A stretch of DNA of 38,885 bases from Oscillospiraceae bacterium (GTDB lineage: Bacteria; Bacillota; Clostridia; Oscillospirales; Oscillospiraceae). A program made the position numbers and the translations under genes. The notes under the pieces were generated by a model, which was given only the letters and a program-made list of their open reading frames with translations, had not been told where the DNA came from and did no database searches. Location of the stretch: positions 1-38,885 of the forward strand of contig JAGAQA010000023.1 in assembly GCA_017622995.1 (NCBI GenBank), given 5' to 3'. Positions 7,516-16,463 of this stretch are shown here, in pieces (position 1 is the first letter of the stretch; every line of letters begins with the position of its first letter).

Positions 7516-8286
7516 ATGGCAAATCCCCATACCATTGCCGTTGCCGGTAAAGGCGGCGTCGGCAAGACCACTACCTGCGGCATGATCATTGAGTATCTGT
7601 GCAAGCAGAAAAAGGGCCCCGTCCTGGTTGTGGACGCGGATGCCAACAGTAACCTCAACGAGGTTTTGGGCGTGAAAGCCGACATCACCCTGGGTCAGAT
7701 CCGGGAAGAGATGGCCCACGCCGAACAGACCGGTTCCATTCCCACGGGAATGACCAAGGCAGACTATGCCGAAATGCAGTTTAACAACGCCCTCATCGAG
7801 GAAGACGACTTCGATATGCTGGTCATGGGCCGCACCCAGGGCAAGGGCTGCTATTGTTATGTAAACGGTGTGCTGAAGACCCAGGTGGACAAGTACGCCA
7901 AGAATTATTCCTATCTGGTCATGGACAACGAGGCGGGCCTGGAGCACGTTGCCAGAGGAACCCTGCCCCATGTGGATACCATGCTGCTCATTTCCGACTG
8001 CTCCCGCCGGGGCATCCAGGCGGTGGCAAGAATCGCGGAAATGATCGATGAGATGGGCCTGAACCCCGGCACCATGGGCCTTATCGTCAACCGGGCCCCC
8101 GGCGGTGTGCTGGAACCCGGCGTCCGGGAGGAGATTGACCGCCATGGCCTCAAGCTGCTGGGCGTGCTGCCTCAGGACGACGGGGTGTACCGCTGCGACT
8201 GCAACGGCGAGCCCTCCGCGCTGCTTCCCGAAACCTCTCCCATGAAGCAGGCCCTGTACGGCATCATGAAAGAGCTGAAGCTGTAA
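7516..8286 (+). CDS. CooC/AcsF-type nickel-maturation ATPase
   Basis: P-loop ATPase of the MinD/CooC group, 256 residues, which in CODH/ACS organisms helps insert nickel into CO dehydrogenase or the ACS A-cluster. The deviant Walker A GKGGVGKTT is at 11-19, the DADANSNL switch at 40-47 and the CxC motif GCYCYVN (Cys112, Cys114), typical of CooC-like dimers that bind metal between subunits. The length fits the family (about 250-260). AAGGAG at 7502-7507 supports the ATG at 7516. It is the first gene of the ACS cluster, 69 bp ahead of acsD. Whether it serves ACS (AcsF) or CODH (CooC) cannot be separated by eye; the absence of a CODH gene nearby and the linkage to acsB favour AcsF. Confidence 0.88.
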   Translation: MANPHTIAVAGKGGVGKTTTCGMIIEYLCKQKKGPVLVVDADANSNLNEVLGVKADITLGQIREEMAHAEQTGSIPTGMTKADYAEMQFNNALIEEDDFDMLVMGRTQGKGCYCYVNGVLKTQVDKYAKNYSYLVMDNEAGLEHVARGTLPHVDTMLLISDCSRRGIQAVARIAEMIDEMGLNPGTMGLIVNRAPGGVLEPGVREEIDRHGLKLLGVLPQDDGVYRCDCNGEPSALLPETSPMKQALYGIMKELKL

Positions 8287-8355: not shown

Positions 8356-9297
8356 ATGTCTTTCGAACCTAAGAAGCAGCCCTACAGCGGCAAGATCAAT
8401 GCCGTGACCCTGGGCACCGGCGACAAGGCAATTGTCATCGGCGGCCAGAACGTGCTGCCCTTCTACACCTTCGATGCGCCCATCGAGAATGCACCGAAGA
8501 TCGGTATCGAAATCTCCGACCTGGCTGGCGAGTGGACTGCGCCTGCCCTGAAGGAGTTCTATGCCGGCTGCACCACCATGGCGGACTACGCCAAGAAGGC
8601 AGAAACCATGGAAGGCGCTGATTTCCTGTGCCTGCACTTTGAGTCTGCCGATCCCAACGGCGCCAACCGCAGCGTCGCCGACTGCGTCGCCGATGCCAAG
8701 GCTGTTGCCGAGGCCGTTTCCATGCCCATCGTCATCATGGGCTGCAAGAACATCGAGAAGGACGGCGAGCTGTTCAGCAAGATCGCCGAGGCCCTGCAGG
8801 GCAAGAACATCCTGGTTCTGTCCGCCCGCAGCGAGGACTACAAGACCGTCGGCGCTTCCGTTGCTCTGGCTTACGGCCAGAAGGTGGGCGCTGAGACCGC
8901 TGACGACATCAACCTGGCAAAGCAGCTGAACATCATGCTGAAGGGCCTGACGGTTTCTCCCGCTTCCATCGTGATGAACGTTGGTACCGCTGCCGTGGGC
9001 TACGGCTATGAGTATGTGGCCTCCACTCTGGACCGGGTCCGTCTGGCCGCTCTGGCTCAGTCCGATGCCGACCTGCAGATGCCCATCATCGCTCCCGTAT
9101 CTCCCGACACCTGGGGCGTGAAGGAATCCACTGCTTCCGAAGAAGATGAACCCACCTGGGGCAGCCAGGAAGAGCGGGCAATCGGCATGGAAGTTGCCAC
9201 TGCCGCTGCTGACCTGACCGGTGGCGCCGATGCCGTGATTATGCGTCATCCCGCCGCGGTTGCTACCATCAAGAAGTTCATCAACGAGCTTATGTAA
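8356..9297 (+). CDS. acsD: corrinoid iron-sulfur protein small subunit (AcsD)
   Basis: Small subunit of the corrinoid iron-sulfur protein, 313 residues, close to the known size of about 320. With AcsC it carries the methyl group from methyl-tetrahydrofolate to acetyl-CoA synthase in the cytoplasm. It reads as the CdhD/AcsD TIM-barrel family: an N-terminal KKQPYSGKINAVTLGTG segment, FYTFDAPIENAPKIGIEI, then barrel strands such as FLCLHFESADPNG and MPIVIMGCKN, and NVGTAAVGYGYEYVAST near the C-terminus. Codon use is strongly biased to C/G-ending codons (AAG, CTG, GCC), as in the next two genes, consistent with high expression. The following gene starts 20 bp downstream with its own GGAGG, so the two subunits are co-transcribed. 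Confidence 0.93.
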   Translation: MSFEPKKQPYSGKINAVTLGTGDKAIVIGGQNVLPFYTFDAPIENAPKIGIEISDLAGEWTAPALKEFYAGCTTMADYAKKAETMEGADFLCLHFESADPNGANRSVADCVADAKAVAEAVSMPIVIMGCKNIEKDGELFSKIAEALQGKNILVLSARSEDYKTVGASVALAYGQKVGAETADDINLAKQLNIMLKGLTVSPASIVMNVGTAAVGYGYEYVASTLDRVRLAALAQSDADLQMPIIAPVSPDTWGVKESTASEEDEPTWGSQEERAIGMEVATAAADLTGGADAVIMRHPAAVATIKKFINELM

Positions 9298-9317
9298 GCG
9301 GAAGGAGGATACATATC

Positions 9318-11600
9318 ATGGCTTTGAAAGGTCTGGACATTTTTAAGCTGTCTCCTAAGAAGAACTGTAAGGAGTGCGGCAGCCCCACCTGTATGGCATT
9401 CTGCATGAAGGTGGCCCAGGGCGCCATCACAATCGATAAGTGCCCCTACTTCTCTGACGACGCAAAGGCAATGCTGAACGAGCAGACTGCGCCCCCCATG
9501 AAGACCATTACCTTCGGTAAGGATCACAAGCTGGGCGGCGAGACCGTGCTGTTCCGTCACGAGAAGACCCTGGTAAACAAGAACCTGTACGCCGTTCCCG
9601 TGTGCACCTGCATGGACGATGCCACTGTGGACGCCAAGCTGGCTGAGATGGCCAAGGTTGACTACGAGCGTATCGGCGAGCGTATGTACGTGGAAACCAT
9701 CTTTGTCCGCAACGCCGGCAACGATGCTGCCGCCTACACCAAGCTGGTGGAGAAGGCTGCCGCTACCGGCCGGGACCTGATCCTGGAGTGCTGGGATGTG
9801 GACTGCGCCAAGGCCGCTCTGGCTGTCTGCAAGGATTCTAAGCCCATCCTGGACGGCGCCACCCCCGACAACTGGGAGGCAATGAACGAGGTTGCCAAGG
9901 AAGCCGGTGTGGTTCTGGGCGTTTGGGCCGAGAACATCTCCGACCTGTACGACACCGTGAAGAAGCTGGAAGCCGCCGGCAACAAGAACCTGGTTCTGGA
10001 TGTCACCGGCAAGACCGCCAAGGAGACCCTGGCCAACGCCGTTCTGGTCCGCCGCACCGCTCTGAAGGACGGCGACCGCAGCTTCGGTTATCCCTCCATC
10101 GTGAACGTTGCCAAGCTGGCCAAGGGTGACAAGCACCTGCAGACCGCTCTGGCTGCCATGTTCACCGAGAAGTACGCCTCCGTCATCGTTATGGAGAGCA
10201 TGGACTACGCCCAGGCCCTGCCGCTGTACGGCCTGCGCCAGAACATCTTCACCGATCCTCAGAAGCCCATGAAGGTGGAGTCCAAGATCTATCCGCTGAA
10301 CGGCGCCGACGAGAACAGCCCCTGCGCCCTGACCGTGGACTTCGCTCTGACCTACTTCCTGGTTTCCGGCGAACTGGAGCGTTCCAACCAGCCTGTGAAC
10401 CTGATCATCACCGACGCCTCCGGTATGTCCGTTCTGACTGCCTGGGCTGCCGGTAAGTTCTCTTCCACCTCCGTGAAGAAGACCTTCGCCGATCTGGACA
10501 TCGAGAACAAGATCAAGAACCGCACCCTGATCATCCCCGGCAAGGTTGCCGTTATGAAGGGCGAAATCGCCGAGAAGCTGCCCGGCTGGAACGTGGTTGT
10601 GGGTCCCACCGAAGCGGTTCAGCTGCCCAAGTACATGAAGGATAAGGAATACGAGGCCGCTGCCAAGGCCGCTGCTGCCGAGGCTGCCGCCAAGGCTGCT
10701 GCCACTCCCGCGGAAGAGGTCAAGGAGCTGTCCTTCGAGGAGCTGCTGGCTACCAAGGTTCCCGCCATCGAAGTGGTGGACATGGGTGTTCAGTACAAGG
10801 GCCACAACCCCGAGGCACAGACCTTCGTTACCATCGGCGAGCGGATCCACTGCATCTCCCCCGTCATCCGCAAGGCTATGGACGAGCGGGATCCCGCTCC
10901 CATCCTGAAGCGTGCCGCTGAGCAGATCGCTGCCGGTGCCACCTACCTGGACGTCAACATCGGACCTGCCGAGAAGGATGGTCCCGAGCGTATGATGTGG
11001 GCTGTCAAGCTGCTGCAGGAGAACTTCAACAACGTGCCTCTGGCGCTGGATACCGCCAACAAGAAGGCCATCGAGGCCGGTATCAAGGTCTACAACCGGA
11101 CCAACGGCAAGCCCATCGTCAACTCCGCTGACGCCGGCTCCCGTATCTCCTACATCGACCTGGCTGCTGCCAACGATGCCATCTGTATCGCCCTGTGCTC
11201 TGCCGACGGCATCGCAAAGGACAACGAAGAGCGCATGAAGCACTGCCACAACATGCTGGAGCGTGGCCTGAGCCTGGGCATGGAGGCCACCGACCTGTGG
11301 TTCGATCCTCTGTTCCTGGTTGTCAAGGGCATGCAGGACAAGCAGATGGACGTTCTGAACGCCATCAAGCTGTTCGCCGACGAGGGCCTGAAGTCCACCG
11401 GCGGCCTGTCCAACAACTCCAACGGCGCACCCAAGAACGTCCGTCCCATCATGGACTCCGCTCTGGTCGCCATGGCTATGATGCAGGGCCTGACCTCCGC
11501 AATCGTCAACCCCTGCGACCTGCGCCTGATGGAAACCATCAAGTCCTGCGACATCTTCAAGAACCACGTTCTGTACTCCGATTCCTACCTGGATCTGTAA
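9318..11600 (+). CDS. fusion of corrinoid protein large subunit (AcsC) and methyltransferase (AcsE)
   Basis: Single 760-residue protein joining two enzymes that are separate in well-studied acetogens. Residues 1-440 are AcsC, the large corrinoid iron-sulfur subunit: [4Fe-4S] ligands Cys17, Cys20, Cys25 and Cys42 (C-x2-C-x4-C-x16-C), a TIM barrel, and the C-terminal cobalamin-binding domain (MSVLTAWAAGKFS, IIPGKVAVMKGEI, VVGPTEA). Residues about 441-480 are an alanine-rich charged linker with two EAAAK units. Residues about 504-758 are AcsE, the methyl-tetrahydrofolate methyltransferase: IGERI, LDVNIGP (Asp545, Asn547), VNSADAG (Asn602), WFDPL (Asp663), GLSN (Asn699). The frame is open with uniform codon use and no frameshift, so it appears genuine. 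The tether would hold the methyl donor site beside the cobalamin acceptor. Confidence 0.93.
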   Translation: MALKGLDIFKLSPKKNCKECGSPTCMAFCMKVAQGAITIDKCPYFSDDAKAMLNEQTAPPMKTITFGKDHKLGGETVLFRHEKTLVNKNLYAVPVCTCMDDATVDAKLAEMAKVDYERIGERMYVETIFVRNAGNDAAAYTKLVEKAAATGRDLILECWDVDCAKAALAVCKDSKPILDGATPDNWEAMNEVAKEAGVVLGVWAENISDLYDTVKKLEAAGNKNLVLDVTGKTAKETLANAVLVRRTALKDGDRSFGYPSIVNVAKLAKGDKHLQTALAAMFTEKYASVIVMESMDYAQALPLYGLRQNIFTDPQKPMKVESKIYPLNGADENSPCALTVDFALTYFLVSGELERSNQPVNLIITDASGMSVLTAWAAGKFSSTSVKKTFADLDIENKIKNRTLIIPGKVAVMKGEIAEKLPGWNVVVGPTEAVQLPKYMKDKEYEAAAKAAAAEAAAKAAATPAEEVKELSFEELLATKVPAIEVVDMGVQYKGHNPEAQTFVTIGERIHCISPVIRKAMDERDPAPILKRAAEQIAAGATYLDVNIGPAEKDGPERMMWAVKLLQENFNNVPLALDTANKKAIEAGIKVYNRTNGKPIVNSADAGSRISYIDLAAANDAICIALCSADGIAKDNEERMKHCHNMLERGLSLGMEATDLWFDPLFLVVKGMQDKQMDVLNAIKLFADEGLKSTGGLSNNSNGAPKNVRPIMDSALVAMAMMQGLTSAIVNPCDLRLMETIKSCDIFKNHVLYSDSYLDL

Positions 11601-11617
11601 ATCGCATAAACTTTCCC

Positions 11618-11643
11618 GGCGGGGAGGGGGCTCCCTCCCCGCC
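11618..11643 (+). terminator. perfect GC hairpin between acsC-acsE and acsB
   Basis: An 11-bp perfect stem (11618-11628 with 11633-11643) around GGCT is followed by ATTTTGCTTT. The T-run is broken, so it could be a leaky terminator or a 3'-end stabiliser that sets the ratio of upstream transcripts to acsB. I see no strong promoter in the remaining 100 bp before acsB. Confidence 0.55.
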
Positions 11644-11746
11644 ATTTTGCTTTCCCGATGCCGGTGGGGACCGGAAAACGTGTTTGCCGGTTCCCGGTGC
11701 CCACTGTTATCGCGAAAGCGGAGCAGAATATTAGGAGGGAAAAAAC

Positions 11747-13873
11747 ATGAGTGTATTAACCGATCTGATTTACGGTGGTTCCAACGCGGTTGCGGGCTTG
11801 ACCGAAAACGCTGTGAACAATGCCATTGCCAAGTACGGCGCAGATAAGGAAATCGCATTCCCCGATACCGCCTATTTCTTCCCCACGATTTACGCGGCTA
11901 CCGGTGTTAAGGTTAAGACCCTGGGTGATTTGCCTGCCTGCGTGGGCGTGCTCAAGAGTCTGATCACCAATCAGGAGGATCTTGGCCAGGCCCTGAACGC
12001 CGGTCTTGCCACTGCCGTGGGCGCCGAGATCATTGAAGGCCTCAAGTATGTGGAGGGCGGCAACCCCTACGAGAACGAGTCCGGCATCGGCTTCGTTCCC
12101 GATCCCATCATCCGTTCCCTGGGCGTGCCCCTGGTTACCGGCGATATTCCCGGTGTTGCTGTTGTGCTGGGCAAGGCCGATGACCCCGCCGAGGTGGTCA
12201 AGGTTGTCAAGGATTACCAGTCCAAGGGCATTATGACCTTCATGGTGGGCGACTGCATTGAGCAGTGTGCCGAGGGCGGCGTCAAGATGGGCCTGGAGCT
12301 CCGGGTGATCCCCCTGGGCCATGATGTCACCTCCGTCATCCATGTTGTCACCGTTGCCATCCGTGCCGCTCTGATCTTCGGCAACGTTCAGCCCGGTGCC
12401 CTGGGCGAGCTGCTGAAGTACACCAAGGAGCGTGTGCCCGCCTTTGTCAATACCTTCGGCGCCATTGATTCCGTTGTGGTTTCCGCCGGTGCCGGCGCCA
12501 TCGCCCTGGGCTTCCCCGTGGTGGTGGACATCGATCTGGGTGAGAACCAGGTTCCCGGTGCTCTGGAATCCGTCTGCGATCACAACGAGACCGTTAAGAA
12601 GTCCCTGGAGCTGCGCAACATCAAGATCAAGGTCAAGGAGCTGCCCATTCCCGTGGCCTTTGCCGCCGCTTTCGAAGGTGAAATCATCCGCAAGGCCGAT
12701 ATGCACAACGAGTTCTGGTCCGCCAAGAACCCCACCGCTGAGCTGGTGGTTATGCGGGAGCTGAACGAAATTGAGGACCACAAGATCAACATCATCGGAC
12801 CGGACCTGGATGAGGCCAAGGATCTGGCTCTGGCTACCTTTGTGGAGGTTGCGGGCAAGAAGATGCAGCCCGACTTCGAGTCCGTCATCGAGCGGAAGTT
12901 CCACGCCTGGTTCAACTACATGGAGGGCGTGATGCACACCGGCCAGCGCAACCAGGTTCGTGTCCGTGTCAGCAACGCCGCCTATGAGGCAGGCCTGCGG
13001 CTGAAGGACTTTGCGGAAGTGCTGTATGTCATGATCATGGACGAGTTCGACGCGGTTGTGGATAAGTGCCAGATCACCCTGATCACCGATGCCGCCCAGG
13101 CTGAAAAGTTCCGTGACGAGATGGCAATGCCCCGTTACAACGCAAGAGACGACCGTCTGGCTTCCATGACCGACGAGGCTGTGGACCGCTACTACACCTG
13201 CATTCTGTGCCAGTCCTTCGCGCCCGCCCACTGCTGCGTGGTCACCCCCGAGCGTCTGGGCCTCTGCGGCGCCGTGTCCTGGCTGGATGCCAAGGCCACC
13301 AACGAGCTGAACCCCAACGGTCCCTGCCAGCCCATCTTCAAGGAAGGCTGCCTGGACGAGCGCACCGGCCGGTATGAGTCCGTCAACAAGGCGGTTACCG
13401 AGGCCACCCACGGCGCGGTTGAGAACGTGACCCTGTACTCCCTGCTGGAGGATCCCATGACCTCCTGCGGCTGCTTCGAGTGCATCTGCGGCATTGAGCC
13501 CGTTTCCAACGGTGTCATCGTGGTCAACCGGGAATACAAGGGCATGACCCCTGCCGGTATGACCTTCGGCGAGCTGGCTTCCTGCACCGGCGGCGGTGTC
13601 CAGACACCCGGCTACATGGGCCATGGCCGTCACTTCATCGCCTCCAAGAAGTTCGTGGCTGCCGAGGGCGGCATCGAGCGGATCGTCTGGATGCCCAAGG
13701 AGCTGAAGGACGATGTGGCGGAGCGCCTGAACAAGACCGCCAAGGAACTGTACGGCATCGACAACTTCACCGATATGGTGGCCGATGAAACCATCACCAC
13801 CGATTGCGAGGAGCTGATGAACTGGCTCACCGAGAAGGATCACCCCGTTCTGGGCCTGGATCCTCTGATGTAA
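11747..13873 (+). CDS. acsB: acetyl-CoA synthase (AcsB)
   Basis: Catalytic subunit of acetyl-CoA synthase, 708 residues (Moorella AcsB is about 729). It condenses CO, a methyl group from the corrinoid protein and CoA into acetyl-CoA at the nickel A-cluster. All expected A-cluster cysteines are present: Cys485, Cys488, Cys497 and Cys507 in YYTCILCQSFAPAHCC and ERLGLCG, plus the Cys574-Gly575-Cys576 motif (MTSCGCFEC) that holds the distal nickel. The N-terminal region (about 1-310) is the domain that contacts CODH in known complexes, followed by the middle and A-cluster domains. The ATG at 11747 follows TAGGAGGG. It shares the strong codon bias of acsD and acsC-acsE. No CODH subunit gene adjoins it, unlike the classical acsA-acsB arrangement. 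Confidence 0.95.
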   Translation: MSVLTDLIYGGSNAVAGLTENAVNNAIAKYGADKEIAFPDTAYFFPTIYAATGVKVKTLGDLPACVGVLKSLITNQEDLGQALNAGLATAVGAEIIEGLKYVEGGNPYENESGIGFVPDPIIRSLGVPLVTGDIPGVAVVLGKADDPAEVVKVVKDYQSKGIMTFMVGDCIEQCAEGGVKMGLELRVIPLGHDVTSVIHVVTVAIRAALIFGNVQPGALGELLKYTKERVPAFVNTFGAIDSVVVSAGAGAIALGFPVVVDIDLGENQVPGALESVCDHNETVKKSLELRNIKIKVKELPIPVAFAAAFEGEIIRKADMHNEFWSAKNPTAELVVMRELNEIEDHKINIIGPDLDEAKDLALATFVEVAGKKMQPDFESVIERKFHAWFNYMEGVMHTGQRNQVRVRVSNAAYEAGLRLKDFAEVLYVMIMDEFDAVVDKCQITLITDAAQAEKFRDEMAMPRYNARDDRLASMTDEAVDRYYTCILCQSFAPAHCCVVTPERLGLCGAVSWLDAKATNELNPNGPCQPIFKEGCLDERTGRYESVNKAVTEATHGAVENVTLYSLLEDPMTSCGCFECICGIEPVSNGVIVVNREYKGMTPAGMTFGELASCTGGGVQTPGYMGHGRHFIASKKFVAAEGGIERIVWMPKELKDDVAERLNKTAKELYGIDNFTDMVADETITTDCEELMNWLTEKDHPVLGLDPLM

Positions 13874-14382: not shown

Positions 14383-14472
14383 ATAATTCCCATTTGCCGC
14401 GCGGCCGGTTCTCTCCCCGGAAGGCAGGGGAAAACAGCCTGCTTCAATCCGATAATATTATATCGATTAAGC

Positions 14473-14501
14473 TGGACAAGCGGTTATATTTGTGCTATAC
14501 T
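14473..14501 (+). promoter_or_regulatory. promoter of acsV
   Basis: TGGACA (14473-14478) and TATACT (14496-14501) are separated by 17 bp, with the acsV ATG about 33 bp downstream of the -10 box. It gives acsV and the DUF3786 gene transcription independent of the acsB transcript. Confidence 0.65.
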
Positions 14502-14534
14502 AAAAACAAAAACGGTAGAAAGAGGGCTGCGCTT

Positions 14535-16463
14535 ATGCCAAAAGTGATCTTTGATATTGAAGGCGGCAAACCCGTCACCGCGGAGTGCAACGTTGGCGAC
14601 AATCTGCTGGAGCTGGCCCGCCGCAGCAATGTGGCCATCGATGCCCCCTGCTCCGGCAACGGCTCCTGCGGCAAGTGCCGGGTAAAGCTCACCGCCGGTA
14701 GTTTGGACTGCATCCAGACCCGCCATATTTCCGACGAGGAATACGCGGAGGGCTGGCGGCTTTCCTGCGCTTCCAAGGTTGTGGGGGACTGCACGGTGCT
14801 GGTGCCGGATATTGCCTCTGCCTATCAGTCCAGGATGAAAACGGCAGACCTTTCTTCCCCCAAGGAGGTCGCTATTTTTGAAAAGGCCCAGCAGGACCTG
14901 CAAAACAGCGGCATCCATTTTGAAAATTCCTACCGCAGTGTGGTGCTGGAGCTGGCAGAGCCCAGCCTGGAGGACACCATGCCGGACAATGAGCGGCTGA
15001 CCTGGGCTCTGGAAGACGCACTGGGGGTTTCCCGGGTCCGGATTCCCCACACCGTTATGGTCCGGCTGGCAGCGACCCTGCGGGAACAGAACTTCCGGGT
15101 CTGTGTCAAGGGCCTGCTGGAGGGGGACAGCTTCACCTGCATGGAAATCTGCGGCCCGGAGGATACCGGAATCTATGGCTGCGCCATCGACATCGGCACC
15201 ACCACCGTGACCATGGTCATCACCGACCTGACCTCCGGCAAGATTCTGGCCAAGGGCTCTTCCGGCAACGGCCAGATCCGCTACGGCGCGGATGTGATCA
15301 ACCGGATCATTGAGCAGGGCAAGCCCGGCGGCAAGAAAAAGCTCCAGGATGCCATCATTAAGGAAACCCTGGTTCCCATTATGGCGGGCCTGTGCAAATC
15401 CGCGAATCTGAGCCCCCGGAGCATTCTGCGGCTGTGCGTGGGCGCCAACACCACCATGAACCATCTGTTTGTGGGGGTGGATGCCCAGAGCGTGCGGATG
15501 GAGCCCTACATCCCCAGCTTCTTTAGCTGGGATGGACTGCTGGCCGGAGATGTAAAGCTCCCGGCCAATCCCCTGGCCCAGGTGCTCATCGCCCCCAACA
15601 TCGGCTCCTATGTGGGCGGCGACATCACCGCCGGTACCCTGGCCTCCGGCATCTGGGACCGGGACGAAATGAGCCTGTTCATCGACCTGGGCACCAACGG
15701 CGAGATCGTCTTCGGCAACCGGGATTTCCTGATGAGCTGTGCCTGCTCCGCCGGCCCTGCCTTTGAGGGCGGCGACATCTCCTGCGGTATGCGCGCCACC
15801 GACGGCGCCATTGAGGCCTGCACCATCGACAAAACCACCATGGAGCCCACCCTCACCATCGTGGGGGACTCCGGGCAGAAGCCCGTGGGCATCTGCGGCA
15901 GCGGCATCATCGATATTATCTCCGAGCTTTTCCGCTGCGGCATCATCAATGCCAAGGGCCTGTTTGTCCGGGAAGGGAACCGGGTCCGCCGGGACCACCA
16001 CGGCATGGGAAGATATGTTCTTGCCGAGCCCCAGGACAGTGAGACCGAGCGGGAAATTTCCATCAACGAGGTGGACATCGACAATTTCATCCGTGCCAAG
16101 GGCGCCATTTTCTCCGCCATCGATACCTTGCTGAAGAGCGTGGATATGACGGTGGAGCTCATCGACGATGTGTATGTTGCCGGCGGCATCGGCTCCGGCA
16201 TCAACATGGGCAACGCGGTGAACATCGGTATGTTCCCGGATGTGCCTCTGGAGAAATTCCACTACATCGGCAACTCCTCCCTGACCGGCGCCTATGCCAT
16301 GGTGATGAGTGACGAGGCAAACACCAAGACCTCCGAAGTGGCGGCAAATATGACCTATCTGGAGCTCAGCACCCACCCGGGCTATATGGATGCCTTTGTG
16401 GCGGCCTGCTTCATTCCCCATACCGATTCCCGGCTGTTCCCCCACAGCGTTCAGGAGGTTTGA
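14535..16463 (+). CDS. acsV: corrinoid protein reductive activator (AcsV/RACo)
   Basis: ATP-dependent activator, 642 residues, that returns inactive Co(II) corrinoid iron-sulfur protein to Co(I). The N-terminal [2Fe-2S] ferredoxin-like domain has Cys39, Cys45, Cys48 and Cys78 (C-x5-C-x2-C-x29-C). A linker region (about 95-205) leads to an ASKHA ATPase domain from about 212: GCAIDIGTTTVTMVITD (phosphate-1), FIDLGTNGEIV (phosphate-2) and VYVAGGIGSGINMG (adenosine motif). The order and length match RACo of Carboxydothermus and AcsV of Acetobacterium. The ATG at 14535 is chosen because AAAGAGGG precedes it and the protein then begins at the ferredoxin strand; upstream in-frame sequence overlaps the promoter and repeat. 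Its stop lies 4 bp ahead of the next gene's TTG. Confidence 0.92.
   Translation: MPKVIFDIEGGKPVTAECNVGDNLLELARRSNVAIDAPCSGNGSCGKCRVKLTAGSLDCIQTRHISDEEYAEGWRLSCASKVVGDCTVLVPDIASAYQSRMKTADLSSPKEVAIFEKAQQDLQNSGIHFENSYRSVVLELAEPSLEDTMPDNERLTWALEDALGVSRVRIPHTVMVRLAATLREQNFRVCVKGLLEGDSFTCMEICGPEDTGIYGCAIDIGTTTVTMVITDLTSGKILAKGSSGNGQIRYGADVINRIIEQGKPGGKKKLQDAIIKETLVPIMAGLCKSANLSPRSILRLCVGANTTMNHLFVGVDAQSVRMEPYIPSFFSWDGLLAGDVKLPANPLAQVLIAPNIGSYVGGDITAGTLASGIWDRDEMSLFIDLGTNGEIVFGNRDFLMSCACSAGPAFEGGDISCGMRATDGAIEACTIDKTTMEPTLTIVGDSGQKPVGICGSGIIDIISELFRCGIINAKGLFVREGNRVRRDHHGMGRYVLAEPQDSETEREISINEVDIDNFIRAKGAIFSAIDTLLKSVDMTVELIDDVYVAGGIGSGINMGNAVNIGMFPDVPLEKFHYIGNSSLTGAYAMVMSDEANTKTSEVAANMTYLELSTHPGYMDAFVAACFIPHTDSRLFPHSVQEV

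Follow-up and report, generated by a model that had tools for sequence, protein, structure and literature searches.

A fused acsC-acsE gene in an Oscillospiraceae bacterium and its relatives

AcsC, the protein that carries methyl groups on B12, and AcsE, the enzyme that loads it, are normally separate polypeptides; many uncultured gut bacteria encode the two as a single protein. In the window analysed here (the whole stretch of 38,885 nucleotides), positions 9318-11600 of the forward strand form a single open reading frame of 760 codons, in which acsC and acsE are joined. Judged from its sequence, the product, AcsCE, is very probably one bifunctional protein that takes on the roles of both proteins in the methyl branch of the acetate-making Wood-Ljungdahl pathway, in which case methyl transfer would take place in a tethered unit.

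The fused gene and its genomic setting

The gene acsCE (9318..11600, forward strand) encodes the large subunit of the corrinoid iron-sulfur protein (CFeSP) fused to the methyl-tetrahydrofolate:CFeSP methyltransferase (760 aa), and an AGGAGG ribosome-binding site can be read 9 nt upstream of its ATG (9303..9308). Pfam searches place the FeS domain at residues 13-44, CdhD at 68-438 and Pterin_bind at 522-731. Two NCBIfam profiles match over their full length, NF003195 (AcsC) at residues 1-443 with 531.6 bits (cut-off 306) and NF040758 (AcsE) at residues 502-760 with 470.1 bits (cut-off 370). The protein thus consists of a complete AcsC (residues 1-442), a linker of 61 residues and a complete AcsE (residues 504-760). 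The original prediction, which had been made from the sequence without database searches and placed AcsC and AcsE in one 760-residue protein, is borne out by the open frame and by both profile scores, and its domain limits agree with the two matches.

The [4Fe-4S] motif region of AcsC, with Cys17, Cys20, Cys25 and Cys42, occupies residues 13-44 (9354..9449, Pfam FeS). It is followed by a part that we take to be a TIM barrel (about residues 61-318, 9498..10271), with approximate limits set from the CdhD match and from a low-confidence loop at 313-317 in the AlphaFold2 model. What is presumably the C-terminal B12-binding domain covers about residues 322-442 (10281..10643), and the linker is attached to its end. 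The role of this C-terminal domain of the corrinoid protein was taken from a part of PMC12289521. In structural comparison the AcsC part aligned with 9fzy_F at a TM-score of 0.87 on the target length, residues 1-442 corresponding to 1-446. The AcsE methyltransferase domain (residues 504-760, 10827..11597) was assigned by conserved residues and by Foldseek matches to 2yck, 1f6y and 2e7f; residues 505-758 align with residues 3-256 of 1f6y, a methyltransferase of the Moorella type.

The four cysteines are invariant in all 53 distinct full-length fused proteins. The same proteins all contain D578, N602, D663 and N699, which presumably take the methyl-H4folate site roles of Moorella D75, N96, D160 and N199 (D75 and N96 were mapped by script; for D160 and N199 the alignment was read). 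Both sets of residues had been described as intact in the original prediction, and they are so in all 53 proteins. The AcsE domain is conserved more than the AcsC part, for example 86.9% versus 64.0% identity between the window and locus L155. Between the window and locus L060, 66 codons differ synonymously and 39 with amino acid change in AcsC, and 33 and 7 codons, respectively, in AcsE. Both halves of AcsCE look functional by these sequence criteria.

The genes around acsCE lie in the order CooC-like gene, acsD, acsCE, acsB and acsV, all on the forward strand. The first (7516..8286) encodes a CooC/MinD-like ATPase with weak MinD/ParA-type profile matches, none of them above cut-off, which we take to be a CooC-type protein and a probable nickel maturation factor. 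The other neighbours match their profiles above cut-off: acsD, the CFeSP small subunit (8356..9297; NF040759, 475 bits), acsB, acetyl-CoA synthase (11747..13873; NF040764, 1003.7 bits), and acsV, the corrinoid activator (14394..16463; NF040756, 924 bits). The real start of acsV is probably further in, since the profile match begins only at residue 50. Between acsCE and acsB, RNA folding predicted a G+C-rich hairpin of 11 bp followed by TTTT (11618..11643, forward strand), and the fold of positions 11598-11700 had a z-score of -2.60, with 1 of 200 shuffles equally low; this hairpin is a possible attenuator.

Among the 17 fused named loci of at least 11 kb, acsD lies upstream of acsCE and a cooC homologue precedes acsD in every case; in separate loci of at least 11 kb, acsB precedes acsD in 29 of 31. 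A tblastn search with AcsB of the window found no acsB in the stretch for five of the 17 fused loci (L060, L069, L075, L079 and L137), so an acsB copy beside acsCE is not universal. In L069, acsV comes after acsCE.

The genome from which the window derives (2.55 Mb) contains no second AcsE match, its sole match being acsCE. Carbon monoxide dehydrogenase (CooS), formate-tetrahydrofolate ligase (Fhs) and MetF are encoded on other contigs of the same genome. The contig with acsCE is not the one with cooS, and cooS has its own acsB. The genome carries two acetyl-CoA synthase genes, one by acsCE (11747-13873) and one by cooS (L212:5071-9906, G000:C44), whose products are 56% identical. In the area of the first A-cluster cysteines one copy reads ...PAHC and the other ...PSHV. 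A further region (L214:422-3950, minus strand) has two frames before MetF, one for an RnfC-like protein of 657 aa that is extended by about 225 residues at its N terminus and one of 247 aa; this is perhaps an arrangement of the MetV/RnfC2 type.

Distribution and evolutionary history

The nearest named relatives in the contig collection are gut Oscillospiraceae. The AcsC part of the window shares 91% identity with that of L060 (Pseudoflavonifractor sp. MSJ-30) and 85% with those of L065 and L066 (Candidatus Faecousia), and by this similarity the genus of the window is at or near Candidatus Faecousia. In 37 genomes of the genus, including that of the window, all 27 loci spanning the junction are fused in frame; another three loci end short of the junction, and seven genomes gave no usable match. 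A set of 80 named loci comprised 33 fused and 40 separate loci, two in which AcsC is stopped with no AcsE in the locus, and five truncated ones. The family sample of 250 genomes yielded 78 with matches, 26 of them fused, 45 unfused and 7 undecided. The fused ones belong to 13 genera, which answers the earlier suggestion to search for both domains in one chain. In 38 of the 45 unfused family genomes AcsE lies downstream, and in seven AcsC is stopped and AcsE is absent from the stretch.

Beyond the family, 22 of the 391 genomes in the class sample had matches, and the 21 besides the genome of the window belong to other families and are all unfused. The phylum sample (398 genomes, 118 matching) contained no fusion among 28 newly read junctions, which gives none in the 49 junctions read outside the family in the class and phylum samples. 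The genome collections share species, and the counts are therefore not independent. Outside the fused set, many matches in two pieces were tabulated with open frames of at least about 700 aa and looked like further fusions, but the DNA shows a stop of AcsC in each one read. A tabulated open-frame length can thus hint at a fusion although a stop separates the two matches in the DNA.

Phylogenetic trees were built from loci with complete AcsC and AcsE, leaving out the duplicates L052-L057 and L059 from all of them. One tree included all 145 rows and an outgroup, the others 71 hand-chosen rows, and L134 and L157 were omitted from the split trees. The 23 fused rows have AcsE domains that group in a single clade apart from the 48 unfused rows (SH-aLRT 100), whereas the AcsC part is a mosaic; this is the outcome of mapping the phylogeny as the original prediction had proposed. 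On the AcsC tree that includes all 145 rows, the fused state has to change three times. A clade of five fused loci (L137, L152, L154, L155 and L156) has as its nearest relative in AcsC residues 1-318 the unfused L173. This N-terminal part rejects a single fused clade (AU p 1e-131); residues 322-438 do not (p 0.94), the constrained tree even fitting better than the free one found, and AcsC taken as a whole is equivocal (p 0.075). Compared with L173, the five-locus clade shares 1 of 16 derived sites with the other fused proteins before, and 20 of 23 after, a switch at residues 293-348, a pattern reached in none of 2000 permutations (test without L088, L119 and the long-branched L134 and L157).

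We infer from these trees that the fusion arose within one family. Descent of the whole gene from a single fusion was considered and is rejected by the N-terminal part of AcsC. Because AcsC 1-318 rejects and 322-438 accepts a single fused clade, and because the switch in derived sites is sharp, it appears that in the five-locus clade a block made up of B12 domain, linker and AcsE was transferred to another AcsC backbone, following one fusion event. The rival account is that two fusions occurred independently, one in the main clade and one in the five-locus clade, and that the residues common to their B12 domains and AcsE are parallel adaptations to tethering. The grouping of the second clade with unfused L173 in AcsC 1-318 (SH-aLRT 99), with the rejection of one fused clade, would fit such a history, as would the different first halves of the linkers in the two clades. 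However, the AcsE domains of the second clade are nested within the fused AcsE clade (100), next to the genus of the window (91), and the common derived sites begin sharply at residues 293-348, so that we regard two fusions as possible but distinctly less likely than one fusion followed by transfer of a C-terminal block.

Two unfused AcsC rows, L088 and L119, branch with the fused AcsC clade and may represent a loss of the fusion or a pre-fusion state. Inspection by eye of the intergenic stretches of L088, L096 and L119 found no AcsE remnant. In L088, a small frame of about 140 codons lies between acsC and acsE (L088:7345-7900), flanked by GGGAGTAGG-type repeats, and by eye it resembles a four-helix-bundle protein of the 23S intervening-sequence type. 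L134 and L157 are fast-evolving fused proteins with long branches and an unsure place in the tree; L134 has an odd composition, and L157 has the shortest junction (44 residues).

Junction, linker and proposed function

The 81 fused loci contain 71 distinct junctions, all with lengths that are multiples of three. In the reading frame of the gene their 4398 codons contain no stop, although base composition alone predicts 127.6, whereas the other two frames, of 4327 codons each, are interrupted 29 and 94 times. The G+C content at the three codon positions of the junctions is 0.64, 0.40 and 0.82. A chance origin of the open junction is excluded, since 71 junctions are in frame and without stops, and the stop or frameshift between residues 440 and 504 that would have undone the original prediction was found in none of them. 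Measured from residue 443 to the IGER motif of AcsE, the junctions span 44-68 residues, with 58-68 in 69 of the 71.

In the window, the linker comprises residues 443-503 (10644..10826), as seen in alignments and in the AlphaFold2 model, and its first half is rich in Ala, Glu and Lys. The translation contains two EAAAK units, at residues 446-450 (10653..10667) and 455-459 (10680..10694). The segment that precedes AcsE (residues 481-503, VPAIEVVDMGVQYKGHNPEAQTF, 10758..10826) was recognised by conservation and is predicted to be extended, with mean pLDDT values of 89 and 78 in the blocks covering residues 481-500. Tyr493 and Phe503 are found in 52 and 53, respectively, of the 53 distinct full-length fused proteins. 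In the same model residues 444-461 form a helix, and the block mean of pLDDT is 56 at 461-470. The model of L155, from another genus, has almost no helix in its linker, with block means of 56, 39 and 64 at residues 451-480. The placement of the domains is not given by these single-chain models, as their pTM values are 0.55 (window) and 0.52 (L155).

At least one EAAAK unit occurs in 25 of the 71 junctions, and two units in seven. The motif is present in 14 of 26 distinct linkers of the genus and in 3 of 18 among L140-L160, where 17 of the 18 distinct linkers have at least three prolines in their first 45 residues. The EAAAK-type linker of the original prediction therefore holds for the window, with its two units and the predicted helix, but it is not general, the linkers of other genera being mostly Pro-rich. 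Its explanation of the linker as a helical, rigid spacer is weak as a general one, given the nearly helix-free linker of L155 and the prolines in the L140-L160 linkers; across the alignment and the two AlphaFold2 models, a rigid EAAAK spacer as a functional principle has no support beyond part of the genus. Between the window and L060, 9 of the 61 linker codons differ synonymously and 9 with amino acid change, so the linker is weakly constrained. What is kept, judging from the aligned linkers, is the length and the segment before AcsE with Y493 and F503. We read the linker, with the models, as a slack tether whose short last stretch packs against the AcsE barrel.

The hand-over of a methyl group from AcsE to the corrinoid protein is textbook cobalamin chemistry between separate proteins. 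In AcsCE, the AcsE domain would take the methyl group from methyl-tetrahydrofolate and hand it over to the cobalamin in a B12 domain joined to AcsE, either that of the same chain or that of the partner chain in an AcsE-type dimer. As the linker begins at the end of the B12 domain, AcsE would travel with this domain: once methylated, the B12 domain would swing over to AcsB, the acetyl-CoA synthase, and AcsE would follow on the slack linker of about 60 residues. AcsD would complete the corrinoid protein and AcsV would re-reduce it, these being their roles in other acetogens. The chain is assumed to stay uncleaved, with methyl transfer inside the tethered unit, where the tether would raise the effective concentration. 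A single chain would also fix the stoichiometry of AcsC to AcsE at 1:1, provided that it is not processed. The natural single-chain AcsCE is a ready-made construct for structural and kinetic studies and for engineering acetogens.

The fusion might instead be only genetic, the chain being cut in the low-complexity linker or AcsE being produced additionally from an internal start. The composition of the linker (Ala/Lys/Glu- or Pro-rich), partly predicted with low confidence, perhaps makes it accessible to proteases, and 49 of the 71 junctions have an in-frame ATG within the last 25 codons before IGER; six ATGs and nine GTG/TTG codons in this stretch have Shine-Dalgarno matches of 4 or 5 bases, those of the ATGs being of 4 bases. 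Against two products, these codons include no in-frame ATG in the other 22 junctions, and the linker keeps its length in 69 of 71 and its conserved Y493 and F503. The start site of separate AcsE, six codons before IGER, was compared with distinct separate genes that carry an IGER-type motif, duplicates and genes lacking it being set aside. All 94 of these genes have a start codon there, 82 of them with a Shine-Dalgarno match of at least 4 bases, and none of the 71 fused junctions has one. Since this codon is gone in all 71 and the genome of the window has a single AcsE match, a separate AcsE product in fused genomes is unlikely, as is an internal start of translation, and we consider a merely genetic fusion, by either route, quite improbable.

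That the AcsE domain has degenerated into a structural appendage, with methyl groups supplied by another methyltransferase, is very hard to sustain. Several genomes of the genus do have other pterin-binding methyltransferases, but these are weakly similar (28-32% identity), the only AcsE match in the genome of the window is the fused one, the four site residues are invariant in 53 of 53 proteins, and AcsE is better conserved than AcsC, with few changing codons between the window and L060. Most of the assemblies are metagenome-assembled genomes (MAGs), yet an assembly or sequencing error that merged two neighbouring genes through a lost stop or a frameshift has a negligible chance of being the cause, because the in-frame junction recurs in 81 loci with 71 distinct sequences, occurs in Pseudoflavonifractor sp. 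MSJ-30, whose record title is not marked as a MAG, lacks the standalone start codon throughout, and has a linker that diverged while staying in frame.

Published surveys and comparison with known systems

No description of an AcsC-AcsE fusion was found in searches of open-licence literature, including the parts consulted of PMC11338639, PMC12449052, PMC3584212, PMC12213060 and PMC10823672; the original prediction likewise knew of no characterised example. In a 2024 survey of human gut genomes, acsE was undetected in 78% of the Oscillospirales genomes with CODH/ACS, in 7 of 9 genera (PMC11338639). Of the 411 Oscillospirales genomes in the survey that have a CODH gene, 282 are from Faecousia, which is therefore probably among the acsE-negative genera. 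The Discussion of PMC11338639 does not take up the missing acsE. The genome of the window agrees with two gaps of the survey, having acsE within acsC and acsCE on a different contig from cooS and its own acsB. In the genus of the window acsE is present, inside acsC, and an annotator that assigns one best label would call acsCE acsC, since the profile scores are 531.6 versus 470.1 bits. The fusion is thus probably what lies behind the undetected acsE, and screens that require this gene, such as the acetogen criterion given in part of PMC12449052, might overlook bacteria with the fused gene. This bearing on the published absence of acsE had escaped the original prediction, as had the joining of AcsE to the B12 domain and the spread of the fusion over 13 sampled genera.

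Both halves of AcsCE are full-length and have the same iron-sulfur and folate-site residues as the separate CFeSP large subunit and methyltransferase (MeTr; PDB 4djd, 1f6y and 9fzy). In contrast to these two polypeptides, AcsCE is a single chain in which a linker of 61 residues connects the B12 domain, at its end, with AcsE, and its AcsE, continuous with AcsC, is not a separate polypeptide as MeTr is. Cobalamin-dependent methionine synthase (MetH) also combines a folate-type methyltransferase barrel and a cobalamin domain in one chain, with methyl transfer between tethered domains. The domain order is reversed, the folate barrel preceding the B12 domain in MetH and following it in AcsCE. The metH profile matches AcsCE in the folate-barrel region only (residues 499-742, 88 bits versus a cut-off of 1011), and the MetH set of homocysteine, folate, cobalamin and activation domains is not present.

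On balance, we hold it slightly more likely than not that B12 domain, linker and AcsE constitute a methyl-loading cassette in one chain that can be transferred as a unit. This counterpart of MetH in the Wood-Ljungdahl pathway, with the domain order reversed, would have arisen once in one gut Oscillospirales-type family and then been transplanted onto a second AcsC near the boundary of barrel and B12 domain, with methylation occurring between the tethered domains; such a cassette would account for the reported absence of acsE from most gut Oscillospirales with the pathway.

An HgcAB-like fusion protein (NF043039) likewise joins a corrinoid-binding CdhD-type domain to another domain, and its profile matches AcsCE weakly at residues 317-448, below cut-off (51 versus 285 bits); its partner and reaction are other than those of AcsCE. 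The acsC-acsE pairs of Lachnospiraceae (Blautia, Hominisplanchenecus and Fusicatenibacter) are among the closer unfused relatives within the named loci. They share 65-69% identity in AcsC and have the gene order acsD-acsC-acsE, and in all that were read a stop terminates AcsC.
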